A stretch of DNA of 64,000 nucleotides from Flavobacterium sp. LC2016-12. GTDB lineage: Bacteria > Bacteroidota > Bacteroidia > Flavobacteriales > Flavobacteriaceae. Positions within the stretch are counted from its first letter, which is position 1. Each line of letters opens with the position of its first letter. The position numbers and the translations under genes are program-made. The stretch is from assembly GCF_015351595.1 (NCBI RefSeq), contig NZ_JADKPT010000001.1:372001-436000 (forward strand), given 5' to 3'. The notes under the pieces are model-generated. The model was not told where the DNA came from. It was given only the letters and a program-made list of their open reading frames with translations, and made no database searches. Below, one piece after another: positions 144 to 7,714 of the stretch.

Positions 144-659
144 TTATTTCCTTAGATTCTTATGATTGTGCTTACGCTTGAAATGTGTTTCTTTTAAATT
201 AGTTTTATCTTTCGAGATAATACTAATTGTACCGTCAATTTCTAGCGTACAGAGCTTTATATCGGTCAAATGTTCTAAACCATGCTCACGTGCCGCTTCT
301 TTTAATTCTTCGTGTGAAATGTCTAATTTGCTCAAAGCATTAAAATCCAAAGTTCCATTATGAATTAGGATTTCGGGTTTGTCTAAAAGCAAATCACTGA
401 CTACTTTGTATTTGTGTGTTAATTTTTTGATGTTAAAATTGATCACAAATAAAGCTAATGCGGCAACCAAACCTCCCCAAAGACTCGTGTCCGGACCGAC
501 CATTGCATTTTGAACAGAATTACTTATCAATAAAATCAGAATAATATCGGCAGTATTTAATTGCGAAAGTTCTTTTTTGCCGAAGATTCGTAAAGCAATT
601 GTCATGAAAAAATAGACTGCGAGACTTCTGAAAATGATATCTAAGTAGGGGTTGAGCAT
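144..659 (-). CDS. DUF421 (YetF-like) membrane protein
   Basis: This is a 171-residue inner-membrane protein of the DUF421/YetF family, whose biochemical role is poorly defined. About three hydrophobic segments fill residues 10-80. A small soluble domain follows, with the family pattern LLDKPEILIHNGTL, then an amphipathic helix region and an 'LCTLEIDGTISII' strand near the C-terminus. The length is short but normal for the family. The gene stands alone between two terminators. A second, longer DUF421 gene with a cysteine-rich tail lies at 37315-38007; the two are diverged paralogues rather than a recent duplication. Family assignment is confident; function is not. Confidence 0.85.
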   Translation of the reverse strand: MLNPYLDIIFRSLAVYFFMTIALRIFGKKELSQLNTADIILILLISNSVQNAMVGPDTSLWGGLVAALALFVINFNIKKLTHKYKVVSDLLLDKPEILIHNGTLDFNALSKLDISHEELKEAAREHGLEHLTDIKLCTLEIDGTISIISKDKTNLKETHFKRKHNHKNLRK

Positions 660-678: not shown

Positions 679-717
679 AAAAAAAAACTTTGTCAAAGTT
701 TAAGCTTTGACAAAGTT
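679..717 (-). terminator. Terminator of the RimB-RimK gene
   Basis: A perfect 13-bp inverted repeat (AACTTTGTCAAAG at 686-698, CTTTGACAAAGTT at 705-717) has an A-run on its left. On the minus strand this reads as hairpin then U-tract, 36 bases after the stop of the gene at 753-2126. Confidence 0.8.
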
Positions 718-752: not shown

Positions 753-2126
753 CTAACTAATTATTTTGAAGTTTTTTTCGATTGCTTTAATCATTTCTCC
801 GGCAATATCTTTGTTGGTTGCGCCTTCAATTCCTTCAAGTCCTGGCGAAGAGTTTACTTCAAGTAATAAAGGTCCTTTAGAAGAACGAATAATATCTACG
901 CCTGCCACTTTTAAGTCCATTGCTTTTGCAGCTTTTATAGCAATCTTTTTCTCTTCTGCTGTTACTTTAATTACAGATGCAGTTCCGCCAAGATGAATGT
1001 TAGCTCTAAATTCTCCCGGCATAGCTTCACGCTGAATAGCAGCAACTACTTTTCCGTCAATTACAAAACAACGAATATCTTTTCCGTTGGCCTCTTTAAT
1101 GAATTCCTGAACTAGTATATTAGCATTTAAACTTTTGAAAGCATTGATAACACTTTCTGCCGCTTTTTTGGTTTCAGCCAAAACAACGCCTTTTCCTTGC
1201 GTTCCTTCCAATAATTTCACGATTAAAGGCGAACCTCCAACCATCTTAATTAAGTTGTCAGTATCCAAAGGAGAATTAGCAAAACCAGTTGTCGGGATGT
1301 CAATTCCACTGTTTAAAAGCAACTGAAGCGAATATAATTTATCACGTGACTGTGTGATGGCTGTAGCTGAATTTAAAACAAAAACCTTCAAGGCTTCAAA
1401 CTGACGTGTCAGGGCACAACCGTAAAACGTAATGCTTGGACGAATTCTGGGAATAATTGCGTCAAATTGATTTAATATTTTTCCGCCTCTGTAATGAATC
1501 TCAGGAGTTTTGGCATCCAGTTTCATGTAGCATTCTTTGATATTCAAAAAATGCATTTCATGACCGCGCATTTCACCGGCTTCCATGATTCTTTTATTGC
1601 TGTATAACTCCGGATTACTTGCTAAAAGTCCAATTCGTAAACCAGAAGTTGCTTTTTCAGAATTTTGATATAATTCTTTAAGTGCTTCGGTTGTAGGTTG
1701 TCCTAATAGGTATTTTTCTTCAGGATCAACAAGTACACGTCCACTCATCGCTTCACGTCCTAAAAGCATGCGGAAACCCATTGAGTCACGATTCGTCAAC
1801 GTCATTTCGATTGGCCATTTTACATCGCCAATTTTTAGATTGGTCTGAATTACGTAGCGATGTTCTCTAAAACCGCTTGAGCTTTTTACAATTCTTTTGT
1901 CAACCAATGGAGCTTCACAATGGATGATGGTTTTAATATTATTCTGAATTGGATTAATATCAAATTTCACCCAATTGGCATCATTTTTTATAAAAGGAGC
2001 TATGTTGATGGCGTGCATTGCAGAAGTTTTGGCACCAGAATCAACACGAGCCTTGATTGTCGGGATTCCTAGTTCTGGAAATGAGCACCATTCTTCACTG
2101 CCTAAAATGACTTTATTTTGAAGCAT
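753..2126 (-). CDS. rimK: RimB-like aspartic-peptidase domain fused to RimK (S6 glutamate ligase)
   Basis: The 457-residue protein has two parts. Residues 1-145 match the retropepsin-like 'ATP-dependent zinc protease' family (RimB/DUF785), with the active-site-type DSGA at 29-32 and the second conserved LLGREAM at 121-127. From about residue 162 the sequence is RimK, an ATP-grasp amino-acid ligase known to add glutamate to the C-terminus of ribosomal protein S6. The ATP-grasp glycine loop ([13 protein letters not shown]), the basic stretch around '[10 protein letters not shown]' and the metal-binding EVNSSPG are all present. In pseudomonads rimB and rimK are separate genes of one operon, so this is a fusion of functional partners. 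The gene has its own terminator. The ligase substrate is inferred. Confidence 0.88.
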
Positions 2127-2198: not shown

Positions 2199-2240
2199 AA
2201 AAAAAATACCCGTTATGTTATGAAAACGTAACGGGTATAT
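2199..2240 (-). terminator. Terminator of clpC
   Basis: Arms ATACCCGTTATGT and ACGTAACGGGTAT form a stem with one wobble pair, with an A-run at 2199-2206 that is a U-tract on the minus strand. It starts 27 bases beyond the clpC stop. Confidence 0.8.
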
Positions 2241-2266: not shown

Positions 2267-4813
2267 TTATTGATTAGTTGGCTCTTCTGCTTTGTGTATT
2301 TCTACTGAAAGTTCCTGAGAGTCATCTTTCAAATCCATTAAGATTTCGTCTCCTGAATGAATTTTTGAAGTGATGATTTCTTCTGCCAATAAATCTTCAA
2401 CATATTTCTGAATCGCTCTTTTAAGAGGTCTTGCACCAAATTGTCTGTCAAAACCTTTTTCAGCGATAAACGCTTTTGCTTTATCAGTAAGACTTAGTTT
2501 ATAACCTAATTCAGCAATACGAGAATATAGTTTTTTAAGCTCGATCTCGATAATCAAATCAATGTCAGCTTTTTCTAAGGCATTAAATACGATTACGTCA
2601 TCAATTCTGTTTAAGAATTCAGGAGCAAAAGTTTTTTTCAATGCGTTTTCGATAATGCTCTTAGAATTTTCATCAGCCTGAGCCACTTTTGCAGCAGTTC
2701 CGAATCCAACACCTTGTCCAAAATCTTTCAACTGACGTGCTCCAACATTAGAAGTCATGATGATAATGGTGTTTTTAAAGTCGATTTTGCGACCTAAACT
2801 ATCTGTCAAATATCCGTCATCTAAAACCTGAAGCATCATATTGAATACATCTGGATGCGCTTTTTCGATCTCGTCTAAAAGAACAACGCAATATGGTTTT
2901 CTGCGAACTTTTTCAGTCAATTGACCTCCTTCTTCGTATCCTACGTATCCCGGAGGCGCTCCAACTAAACGAGAGATCGCAAATTTCTCCATGTATTCAC
3001 TCATGTCGATACGAACTAATGCATCTTCGGAATCGAATAATTCTTTTGCTAAAACTTTTGCTAACTGCGTTTTACCAACTCCAGTCTGACCTAAGAAAAT
3101 GAACGAACCAATTGGTTTGTTAGGATCTTTAAGTCCGGCTCTGTTACGTTGAATAGAACGTGCAATTTTTAATACAGCTTCATTTTGACCAATTACTTTA
3201 TTCTGAATCAATTCAGGTAATTTGGCTAATTTGTTACTTTCTGTTTGTGCAATTCTATTAACAGGAATTCCGGTCATCATCGAAACAACATCAGCTACAT
3301 TATCTTCTGTAACTTCAATTCTGTTATTTTTAGAATCTTCTTCCCATTGTTCTTGCGCAACTGCTAAATCTTTTTCAATTCGTTTTTCATCATCACGAAG
3401 TTTGGCTGCTTCTTCATATTTTTGTTTTTTAACAACCATATTTTTGTTTTCACGCACTTCTTCTAGCTGACGTTCCAAATCAAGAATTTGTTTAGGAACA
3501 TCTATATTAGTAATGTGTACGCGAGAACCGGCTTCGTCAAGAGCATCAATAGCTTTGTCCGGTAAAAAACGCTCAGACATATATCTGTTTGTTAATTTAA
3601 CGCAGGCTTCAATTGCTTCCTGAGTATAAGTAACATTGTGGTGATCTTCGTATTTATCTTTTACATTATTCAAAATTGCAATAGTTTCTTCAACAGAAGT
3701 TGGTTCTACAATTACTTTTTGGAAACGTCTTTCTAAAGCACCATCTTTTTCAATATATTGTCTGTACTCATCAAGAGTAGTAGCACCAATACATTGGATT
3801 TCTCCCCTTGCTAAAGCAGGTTTGAACATGTTTGAAGCATCAAGTGAACCAGTGGCTCCACCAGCACCTACTATAGTATGAATCTCATCAATAAAAAGAA
3901 TAATGTCGTCGTTTTTCTCAAGCTCGTTCATAACGGCTTTCATTCTTTCTTCAAACTGACCACGGTATTTTGTTCCGGCTACTAAACTAGCCAAATCAAG
4001 AGTAACCACACGTTTGTGGAAAAGAATACGAGATACTTTCTTTTGAATAATACGCAAAGCTAGTCCTTCTGCAATAGCAGACTTACCAACTCCTGGCTCT
4101 CCAATTAGAAGCGGATTGTTCTTTTTTCTACGGCTTAAAATTTGAGAAACACGTTCAATTTCTTTCTCGCGTCCTACTACCGGATCTAGTTTTCCTTCCT
4201 CAGCCATTTCTGTTAAATCTCTCCCAAAATTATCTAAAACCGGAGTCTTGGATTTTTTGTTTGACTTATTGGCCGGATTGTTAAAACTACTTTCTTTAAG
4301 ACTGTCATCTTGTCCTGAATCGTCATTGTACGATTCGTTTCTTGGCAAGTTTTCTAAGAATTCTTCTTCGTTTGGCGTCATGTTTAAATATTGTTCTTTA
4401 GCTATGTCATAATCTATTTTTAGCTTATTCAATAGCTTGGTTGTTGGATCGTTTTCGTTTCGTAAGATGCATAAAAGCAAGTGTGCCGTGCTAATCGACG
4501 AACTTTGAAATACTTTTGCTTCAAGAAAGGTTGTCTTCAGGGCTCTTTCTGCCTGTCGGGTAAGATGAAGATTTTTCTTTTCAGCATTTACTTCAACGCT
4601 CTGGTTGGCTGGACTCAGTATTTCTACCTTCCTGCGTAAATGGTCTAAATCGACTGCTAGGTTATTAAGTATATGAATAGCTTTTCCGTTACCATCTCTT
4701 AAAATGCCCAGCATTAGATGTTCAGTACCAATAAAGTCGTGTCCTAAACGAAGGGCTTCTTCCTTACTGTATGTAATAACATCTTTTACTCTTGGTGAAA
4801 AATTATCATCCAT
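2267..4813 (-). CDS. clpC: ClpC, AAA+ unfoldase subunit of the Clp protease
   Basis: ClpC unfolds proteins and feeds them to ClpP in the cytoplasm. The 848-residue protein has the full family layout: an N-terminal double Clp repeat (1-145), a linker rich in Ser and Asn (150-190), AAA domain 1 with Walker A GEPGVGKS (238-245) and Walker B ILFIDE, a UVR-type coiled coil near 450-490, AAA domain 2 with GQTGVGKT (575-582) and VVLLDE, and the ClpP-docking VGF loop (702-704). The UVR segment separates ClpC from ClpA and ClpB. It is divergent from gyrA with 258 bases between them, and no mcsB/ctsR-like partner is adjacent. Confidence 0.96.
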
Positions 4814-5071: not shown

Positions 5072-7714
5072 ATGTCTGAAGGAGAAAAGTTAATTCCTAT
5101 TAACATAGAAGATGAAATGAAATCAGCTTACATCGATTATTCGATGTCAGTAATCGTATCTAGAGCACTTCCTGATGTTAGAGATGGCTTGAAACCAGTG
5201 CATCGAAGAGTTCTTTACGGAATGTATGACTTAGGAGTAACATCAAGATCTGCCCACAAAAAATCTGCGAGAATCGTAGGAGAGGTTCTGGGTAAGTATC
5301 ACCCACACGGAGATACCTCTGTTTATGATGCCATGGTACGTATGGCTCAGGAATGGAGTATGCGATATTTATTAGTAGACGGTCAGGGTAACTTTGGTTC
5401 TGTTGATGGTGACAGTCCGGCAGCAATGCGTTATACTGAGGCCAGAATGCGCAAAATTTCAGAAGATATTATGGCAGATATCGAAAAAGAAACAGTTGAT
5501 TTTCAATTGAACTTTGACGATACATTATATGAGCCAAAAGTAATGCCAACAAGAGTTCCGACTTTATTAGTGAACGGAGCGACTGGTATTGCGGTTGGTA
5601 TGGCTACTAATATGCCTCCACACAATTTAACGGAAGTAATCAACGGTACATTAGCGTATCTTGATAATAATGATATTGAAATTGACGAATTAATGACACA
5701 TATTAAAGCTCCGGATTTTCCAACTGGAGGTGTAATATATGGTTATGAAGGTGTTCGCGAAGCTTTTAAAACGGGTAGAGGACGTATTGTAATGCGTGCT
5801 AAAGTTGGTTTTGAAGAAGTTGACGGAAGAGAATGTATCATTGTTACTGAAATTCCATACCAGGTTAACAAAGCCGAAATGATCAAACGTACGGCTGATT
5901 TGGTTAACGATAAAAAAATTGAAGGTATTGCAAACATTCGTGACGAATCGGACAGAAATGGTATGCGTATCGTTTACATCCTGAAGCGTGATGCTACGCC
6001 AAACGTAGTTTTGAATACCTTATATAAGTTTACCTCATTACAATCATCTTTCAGTGTGAATAATATTGCACTTGTAAAAGGCCGCCCACAAATGTTGAAT
6101 CTAAAAGATATGATTCACTATTTTATTGAGCACCGTCATGATGTTGTAGTTCGTAGAACGCAGTTTGAATTACGTAAAGCAGAAGAAAGAGCGCACATAT
6201 TAGAAGGTTTGATTATTGCTTCTGATAATATTGATGAAGTAATTGCTATCATCAGAGGTTCTAAAAATACAGAAGAAGCTCGTGAGAAATTAATCGAAAG
6301 ATTTAATTTGTCTGATATTCAGGCTCGTGCAATTGTTGAGATGCGTTTACGTCAGTTAACTGGTCTGGAGCAAGATAAATTAAGAGCTGAGTTTGAAGAA
6401 TTGATGAAATTAATCGAACACTTAAAAGCATTATTAGCAGATGTTAATTTGAGAACTAACCTTATTAAGGAAGAACTTGAAGAAATTCGTGAGAAATACG
6501 GAGATGAGCGTCGTTCTGTAATTGAATATTCTGGTGGAGATGTAAGTATTGAAGATTTAATCGCAGATGAGAATGTGGTAATTACAATTTCGCATGCAGG
6601 TTATATCAAACGTACTAACCTGACAGAATACAAAACTCAAAATAGAGGTGGAGTTGGGCAAAAAAGTGCAGGAACAAGAGATCAGGATTTCCTTGAGCAT
6701 ATGTTCGTTGCTACCAACCACCAATATATGATGTTCTTTACACAAAAAGGAAAATGTTTCTGGATGCGTGTGTATGAAATTCCGGAAGGAAGTAAAACTG
6801 CAAAAGGTAGAGCAATCCAAAACTTAGTAAACATTGAAAGTGATGATAAAGTTAAAGCTTTCATTTGTACACAAGATCTAAAAGATAAAGATTACATCAA
6901 TAGTCATAACCTTGTAATGGTTACCAAACAAGGTCAGGTTAAGAAGACTTCTTTAGAGAAATATTCAAAACCAAGGGTAAATGGTGTTGCTGCTATTACT
7001 ATTAAGGAAGGTGACGAATTAATGGGGGCGCAATTAACTAATGGGGAAAGTCAAATTATCTTAGCAGTTAAGTCTGGTAAATTGGTTCGTTTTGAGGAAA
7101 CCAAAACACGTCCGATGGGAAGAACAGCTTCTGGAGTTCGTGGAATTACCTTAAAAGATGATACTGATGAAGTAATTGGTATGGTTACTGTAGACAAAAA
7201 CGATATTAATGATTCACAAATCTTGGTTGTTACTGAAAATGGATACGGAAAACGTACCAAATTAGTAGACGAAGATGGTGAAGATGTTTACAGAATCACA
7301 AACCGTGGAGGTAAAGGTGTTAAAACGCTTAATATTACAGAGAAAACAGGAAAACTGATCTCCATTAATGCGGTAACTGATGCTGATGATTTAATGATTA
7401 TCAACAAATCCGGATTAACAATTAGAATGGCTATTGAAGATTTACGTGTTATGGGTCGTGCAACACAAGGTGTTCGATTAATTAACCTAAAAGGTAAAGA
7501 TTCTATTGCTGCTGTAACAAAAGTTATGAAAGATGATGTTGAAGAGGTTGTTGTTGATGAAGAAGGAAATGTAGTAGGGCCAGTTATTGAAAGAGTTAAG
7601 CCAGACTTAGAAGTTCTTGAAGATGACGGAACCGCTGAAGACGACGACGATGACGATTCTGATGAAGAAATAGTAGACGAGGATGATTCTGAAGAAGAAG
7701 AGTCAGAGGAATAA
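5072..7714 (+). CDS. gyrA: DNA gyrase subunit A
   Basis: GyrA is the DNA-cleaving subunit of gyrase. Catalytic Tyr121 lies in 'AMRYTEARM'. The quinolone-resistance region reads [12 protein letters not shown], giving Thr82 and Asp86 at the positions of E. coli Ser83 and Asp87. The C-terminal beta-pinwheel carries a GyrA-box (QNRGGVGQ), which supports gyrase rather than ParC. The last ~40 residues form an extremely acidic Asp/Glu tail. The length of 880 is normal. A TPR protein follows after 44 bases with no terminator between them, suggesting co-transcription. Confidence 0.97.

Follow-up and report, generated by a model that had tools for sequence, protein, structure and literature searches.

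Lineage-specific changes near the glutamate-chain site of a RimB-like protease–RimK ligase hybrid from Flavobacterium

In Escherichia coli and Pseudomonas, the C-terminal glutamate of ribosomal protein S6 is the acceptor for the ligase RimK. The glutamate chain bound to P. aeruginosa RimK contacts S68, S7, R8, R64, S14, N262, and R189, and residues 211, 215, and 216 are oriented differently between RimK enzymes (PMC10092738). In vitro, E. coli RimK makes free polyglutamate, and free polyglutamate synthesis by the RimK of Pseudomonas strain SBW25 is stimulated by the protease RimB (PMC11957791). According to the same source, RimB cuts glutamate stretches from about five or six residues upwards, also cleaves polyglutamate on other carrier proteins, and shows no detectable cleavage as the SBW25 D31E variant. 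In the homologous RloA retropepsins of Pseudomonas, polyglutamate is coordinated by K46, R114, and R137 (PMC12239564).

Proteins in which the two activities are joined have already been named RimBK hybrids and described (Little et al. 2025, PMC11957791), so that the architecture itself is not new. In the account given there, 12% of the 2226 accessions with rim genes carry a hybrid, chiefly those of Flavobacteriales and Rhodobacterales. The hybrid of Desulfotalea psychrophila (DP2392, Q6AKK4) cleaves polyglutamylated S6, and glutamylation of SBW25 S6 by this protein is reported as not observed; the assays used Pseudomonas S6 and not that of D. psychrophila. That paper left open whether hybrids have no S6 activity or do something else. 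The designation 'rimBK' in PMC7343187 refers to a deletion of both genes.

Domain architecture and lineage of the hybrid

The window (the whole stretch of 64,000 nucleotides analysed, from Flavobacterium sp. LC2016-12) contains a rimBK-type gene on the reverse strand at 753..2126, open from its ATG for 457 codons. The 457-aa product comprises a RimB-like retropepsin domain (aa 7-140; PF05618, E 1e-34), a linker (about aa 141-162), the RimK pre-ATP-grasp domain (Rimk_N, aa 163-257, E 4.4e-37), and the RimK ATP-grasp domain (aa 261-449, E 2e-66), with all three domain matches exceeding their Pfam cut-offs. As in the RimBK hybrids of Little et al., the RimB-like domain is N-terminal to RimK in one frame and carries an aspartate in a D-S/T-G-A motif; the D. 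psychrophila protein has this same order in one chain, going by its published description. The motif reads DSGA (aa 29-32, codons at 2031..2042, reverse strand), and D29 is the predicted catalytic aspartate, which by motif would be equivalent to D31 of SBW25 RimB and D48 of RloA. The initial annotation had described this gene as a RimB-like protease fused to RimK with a DSGA motif, and both points were borne out, as was its statement that RimB and RimK are encoded separately in pseudomonads, for which PMC10092738 provides the literature support.

Using NCBIfam models, the ligase domain passed the cut-off of the RimK S6--L-glutamate ligase equivalog (NF007764; 397.5 against 331 bits), and the models for MptN and LysX matched it below their cut-offs. 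The protease half fell short of the RimB equivalog (NF052261; 134.9 against 200 bits) and is therefore RimB-like, not RimB in the sense used by NCBI. In the source genome (5.0 Mb, 38 contigs), the gene gave the sole PF05618 match, and one RimK match was obtained at E ≤ 1e-60. The same two activities as those of Pseudomonas RimB and RimK are predicted for one polypeptide, where Pseudomonas has two proteins.

The distribution of fused and unfused forms was examined in 296 Bacteroidota genomes, 83 of which gave PF05618 matches. Fused single frames of 456-490 codons were found in all 18 genomes of the source genus (source genome included) and in one other genome of the same family (G182), so that the fusion, recurring across genomes, is not an assembly artefact. 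The matches in the remaining 64 genomes were unfused, and in 63 of these rimK lay directly downstream of rimB, as separate genes like those of Pseudomonas, with 15-222 bases (median 32) between the profile matches. Since unfused rimB adjoins rimK, a hybrid could arise by loss of the stop between the neighbouring genes. The sole exception among the 64 (G231:C1:1458883-1459296) has its PF05618 match in a frame of 354 codons, a long way from rimK.

For relatives beyond this sample, contigs were scanned with eight aligned RimB domains, that of the window heading the alignment, and the best 80 of at least 579 relatives were taken, a hybrid-led selection that carries no estimate of frequency. Full-length single frames were present in 79 of these best 80, the remaining locus (L191) being split into two frames. 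Far from being lost in most homologues, the outcome that the initial annotation had named as counting against it, the DSGA motif was kept in 80/80 of this best-scoring set. Going by record titles, hosts among the best 80 included Flavobacterium, Myroides, Draconibacterium, Shewanella, Marinomonas, Microbulbifer, and Granulosicoccaceae, together with four MAGs, one alphaproteobacterial, one Rickettsiales, and two verrucomicrobial; titles naming Rhodobacterales were absent from the best 80 of at least 579. The protease domain of the window protein is up to 99% identical to Flavobacterium records. One locus assigned to a Candidatus Nitrotoga MAG (L183) has the clpC-rimBK order typical of Flavobacterium and is probably a contaminant contig.

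Fused and unfused forms could be told apart by a single residue of the protease motif. After removal of identical sequences from the BLAST set, and with the split hybrid set aside, 90/90 fused domains carried DSGA versus DTGA in 24/24 unfused domains, the latter being those of the 64 unfused genomes with loci in hand; Pseudomonas RimB likewise differs from the hybrids in having DTG for DSG. The comparison of fused and unfused phylogenies that had been proposed was then carried out on each half. In an unrooted tree of protease domains (46 fused, 24 unfused; one in five Flavobacterium sequences retained, L191 left out), the fused sequences formed one side of a branch with support of 100/99. An unrooted tree of ligase domains (43 fused, 28 unfused; L191 excluded, together with L196, L211, and L209, which formed long branches) gave the same division with support of 100/100, and one fused/unfused change was obtained in 100% of 200 bootstraps. 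The hybrids thus read as one lineage in both trees, and the mixture of phyla within the fused group suggests transfer.

The protease site and the chain-binding pocket

Profile comparison of the protease domain with solved chains gave E values from 8.5e-28 to 7.6e-19 for 9g59, 9g58, and 2pma, with the active-site aspartate aligned, placing the domain among the retropepsin-like aspartic proteases. Chains 9g58 and 9g59 we take to be RloA-type, going by the chain names and PMC12239564. R27, D29, G31, A32, R90, and R113 were invariant in 28 hybrids, and from alignment and spacing R27, D29, R90, and R113 appear to match K46, D48, R114, and R137 of RloA. The likeness to RloA would thus extend to the presumed polyglutamate-contact positions; the RloA proteins differ in being secreted, in having a disulfide, and in standing outside any RimK chain (PMC12239564). 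In a Foldseek search with the structure model, all 50 matches listed were ATP-grasp enzymes, and the assignment of the protease fold accordingly comes from sequence, through the profile match to solved chains. The model itself (single chain, mean pLDDT 78) has poor stretches within 280-343, for which reason distances were not used.

The ligase domain of the model is 56% identical to solved E. coli RimK (5zct) in the structure match; the E. coli enzyme differs in having no protease domain, in its S6 acceptor, and in its canonical S7-R8 and G66. To compare the pockets, 88 hybrid ligase domains (L191 counted as a hybrid) were aligned together with 30 others, namely 28 unfused domains and the chains of P. 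aeruginosa and E. coli. A column was taken as separating when the hybrids were at least 90% uniform and a different residue stood in at least 80% of the remaining 30 sequences. Nine of 288 columns separated the two groups. In P. aeruginosa numbering, these were S7 to A (87/88 hybrids), R8 to S (85/88), T15 to N (87/88), I41 to L (82/88), G66 to R (80/88, with K in the remaining 8), A67 to P (86/88), S212 to A (85/88), L250 to I (85/88), and I282 to M (83/88). The remaining catalytic-site residues are retained in the hybrids, R64, R189, and N262 among them. Separate Pseudomonas RimK keeps S7-R8 and G66. In the parts of the rim literature surveyed, no comparison between the ligase pockets of hybrids and of unfused RimK was found.

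In the window protein, Ala-Ser at aa 169-170 (1617..1622, reverse strand) replaces, by alignment, the chain-contacting Ser7-Arg8 of P. aeruginosa RimK, and Arg-Pro at aa 229-230 (1437..1442, reverse strand) replaces Gly66-Ala67, which lies between the contacts Arg64 and Ser68. Five of the seven polyglutamate contacts (S7, R8, S14, R64, S68, R189, and N262) are kept, S7 and R8 being the two changed. Of the nine separating columns, six were no more than two residues away from one of the ten site positions taken from the literature (hypergeometric 3e-4), and five of nine were so when the seven direct contacts alone were used (8e-4); both values are rough, the two-residue margin having been chosen after the columns were seen and neighbouring sites of one lineage having been treated as independent.

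Sixteen more distant RimK paralogues were used for comparison. These keep S7 (15/16), T15 (15/16), G66 (14/16), S212 (13/16), and R8 (7/16); A212 occurs in 3/16, and R or K at 66 or P at 67 was absent from all 16. As S7, T15, and G66 are mostly retained and R/K66 or P67 never occurs, the hybrid states look derived. The 66-67 change appears in this alignment as the clearest hybrid-specific one, the loss of R8 and the presence of A212 not being unique to hybrids. R or K at 66 may relocate the charge rather than remove it.

Product and acceptor

The reading we prefer, at a probability of roughly 0.55, is that the hybrid makes and trims poly-alpha-L-glutamate, which would be free or attached to something other than S6. 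The protein would combine an alpha-L-glutamate ligase of the RimK ATP-grasp type with a retropepsin-like endopeptidase, at its N-terminus, that cleaves glutamate runs. If the hybrid works as RimB and RimK of P. fluorescens do, its protease domain would pair with another copy to form the active site, within a dimer or tetramer, and would stimulate the ligase in cis and trim its product. One polypeptide would then both build and shorten poly-alpha-L-glutamate, and the product could be either free polyglutamate or a tail carried by a different acceptor from S6. The invariance of the protease site and of the presumed polyglutamate contacts in 28 hybrids suggests a polyglutamate product.

A related explanation is that the hybrid glutamylates one particular protein other than S6 and that the fused protease reverses the modification. 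Changes in the pocket could suit a new acceptor, and the cleavage by RimB of polyglutamate on other carriers (PMC11957791) is in keeping with this. Downstream of rimBK, a terminator-like hairpin with a T run (686..717, reverse strand; a pattern match only) precedes a gene for a DUF421/YetF C-terminal domain protein (144..659, reverse strand), found in 35/49 Flavobacterium-group loci and 0/31 others. On the other side, a second hairpin flanked by A/T runs (2206..2238; the pattern was listed on the forward strand only, and its A run was seen by eye) lies between rimBK and a ClpC-type ATPase gene (2267..4813, reverse strand), a neighbour in 45/49 Flavobacterium-group loci and 0/31 others. Divergent from clpC is gyrA (5072..7714, forward strand), which like clpC was named from its sequence and has a long acidic tail ending SEEEESEE. 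The usual Flavobacterium order is gyrA, clpC, rimBK, DUF421. With hairpins on both sides rimBK may be transcribed alone, and such autonomy is in keeping with a self-sufficient enzyme.

No conserved partner gene was seen across the 80 hybrid loci, some of which are shortened by contig ends. Flavobacterium and the other hosts have no common neighbour apart from single cases, which speaks against one particular protein substrate; besides the hybrid, the commonest gene cluster in the other 31 loci, LysR-type as judged by eye, was found in 5 of them and the next in 3. The GyrA tail was considered as an acceptor. It ends in E in 34/44 copies and in EE in 28/44, the copies coming from 41 Flavobacterium-group loci, the window, and L198, with one copy in two pieces. 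Compared with hybrid-free genomes of the same family (5/11), this frequency is borderline (Fisher 0.06). Compared with all hybrid-free genomes (11/17), it is not significant (Fisher 0.34), and E-ended tails were found in 6/6 same-order genomes with neither PF05618 nor RimK, in 3/6 with separate genes, and in 2/5 with RimK-like genes only. GyrA as acceptor is thus not supported. Tails already encoded as polyglutamate were sought as four Glu codons followed by TAA or TGA; two forward matches were found in the genome against one in the control, both ending open frames, 107 and 234 residues from the previous stop. Taken together, a single dedicated protein substrate seems unlikely.

A further explanation is that the hybrid still glutamylates S6, by accepting a C-terminus other than glutamate or after processing of S6, with the protease setting tail length as in Pseudomonas. 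The score of the ligase domain against the S6--L-glutamate ligase model would favour this, as would the presence of one S6 match and one RimK match in the source genome. The S6 in question, however, ends ...RRRAKLKSTKA: the tail, which the initial annotation had suggested checking for terminal glutamates, is basic and without glutamate, in contrast to the DNADE ending of SBW25 S6. In 81 Bacteroidota genomes (80 plus the source genome), glutamate-ended S6 was found in 0/19 with the hybrid, 5/40 with separate rimB and rimK, 2/8 with RimK-like genes only, and 0/14 with neither; 10 further S6 of the 40 end in D. In the family of the window, S6 tails were basic in every rim class read. This organism's S6 thus lacks the acceptor residue, but S6 tails in the family do not track rimBK.

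Hybrid-holding genomes from the wider set gave a more varied picture. Of 35 searched for S6, 34 gave matches, 30 loci were returned, and 29 were parsed (G309 was missed). With hosts assigned by record title, glutamate-ended S6 was present in 0/7 Bacteroidota (one ends in D), 14/21 Gammaproteobacteria (005FR1 counted among them), and 0/1 Rickettsiales, giving 0/26 for hybrid-bearing Bacteroidota in both sets. A glutamate-ended S6 is therefore not shared by all hybrid hosts, though common in gammaproteobacterial ones, in which S6 could be a target. In the present organism the acceptor is probably not S6, and continued S6 glutamylation here is quite improbable, the more so given the changed chain-site residues of the ligase.

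The initial annotation had offered two options, that modification and processing of the S6 tail are coupled within one enzyme or that the substrate differs. It is still plausible that a single chain couples ligation with cleavage; S6 as the substrate fails on the basic tail. A different substrate is favoured by the S6 tails, by the lineage-specific changes at the glutamate-chain site, and by the D. psychrophila hybrid, for which PMC11957791 reports no S6 glutamylation, a result that is suggestive only, foreign S6 having been used.

It is very unlikely that the ligase acts on a small molecule, as do its relatives MptN and LysX, with the protease domain being structural or regulatory. The versatility of the RimK superfamily and the changed acceptor site would allow it, but the protease active site and the presumed polyglutamate contacts do not vary among 28 hybrids, and no shared biosynthetic neighbours were seen among the 80 hybrid loci. 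That the protein is a polyglutamate protease with an inactive ligase domain can be given hardly any weight, for although PMC11957791 reports protease activity alone for a hybrid, R189 is conserved in 88 of 88 hybrids, R203 in 87, and N262 in 86, and numerous other positions of the ligase show no variation among 28 hybrids.

Synthesis and trimming of poly-alpha-L-glutamate, whether unattached or carried by an acceptor that is not S6, therefore continues to be the preferred reading. A broader view, held tentatively and at somewhat less than even odds, is that the hybrid is not an S6 system at all: its acceptor site would have been rebuilt with or after the fusion, through changes of Ser-Arg to Ala-Ser, Gly-Ala to Arg/Lys-Pro, and Ser to Ala, yielding an autonomous poly-alpha-L-glutamate synthesis-trimming enzyme that moved between phyla as a single gene. 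If polyglutamate is an end in itself for this lineage, many genes scoring as S6--glutamate ligase are misnamed. The residues listed above, the DSGA/DTGA marker, and the S6 tails make the question left by Little et al. testable.

In 4/35 hybrid-holding genomes, a stand-alone RimK (441-481 bits) was found in addition, which fits a separate role. Two genomes with a stand-alone RimK, of 481 bits in G318 and 472 bits in G308, have S6 that does not end in glutamate. Two or three RimK-family matches each were obtained in the Granulosicoccaceae genomes G300, G302, G310, and G320 (loci L193, L195, L203, and L213), and in G300, G302, and G320 two of these lie in frames of 475-514 codons, the length of a hybrid. 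RimK paralogues with no B domain detected are present at G307:C2:39300-40166, G300:C177:33126-33992, and G310:C68:11082-11948; their frames are of 358-372 codons as truncated by the stretches retrieved (403-423 in the genome search) and extend some 70 residues past the ligase.
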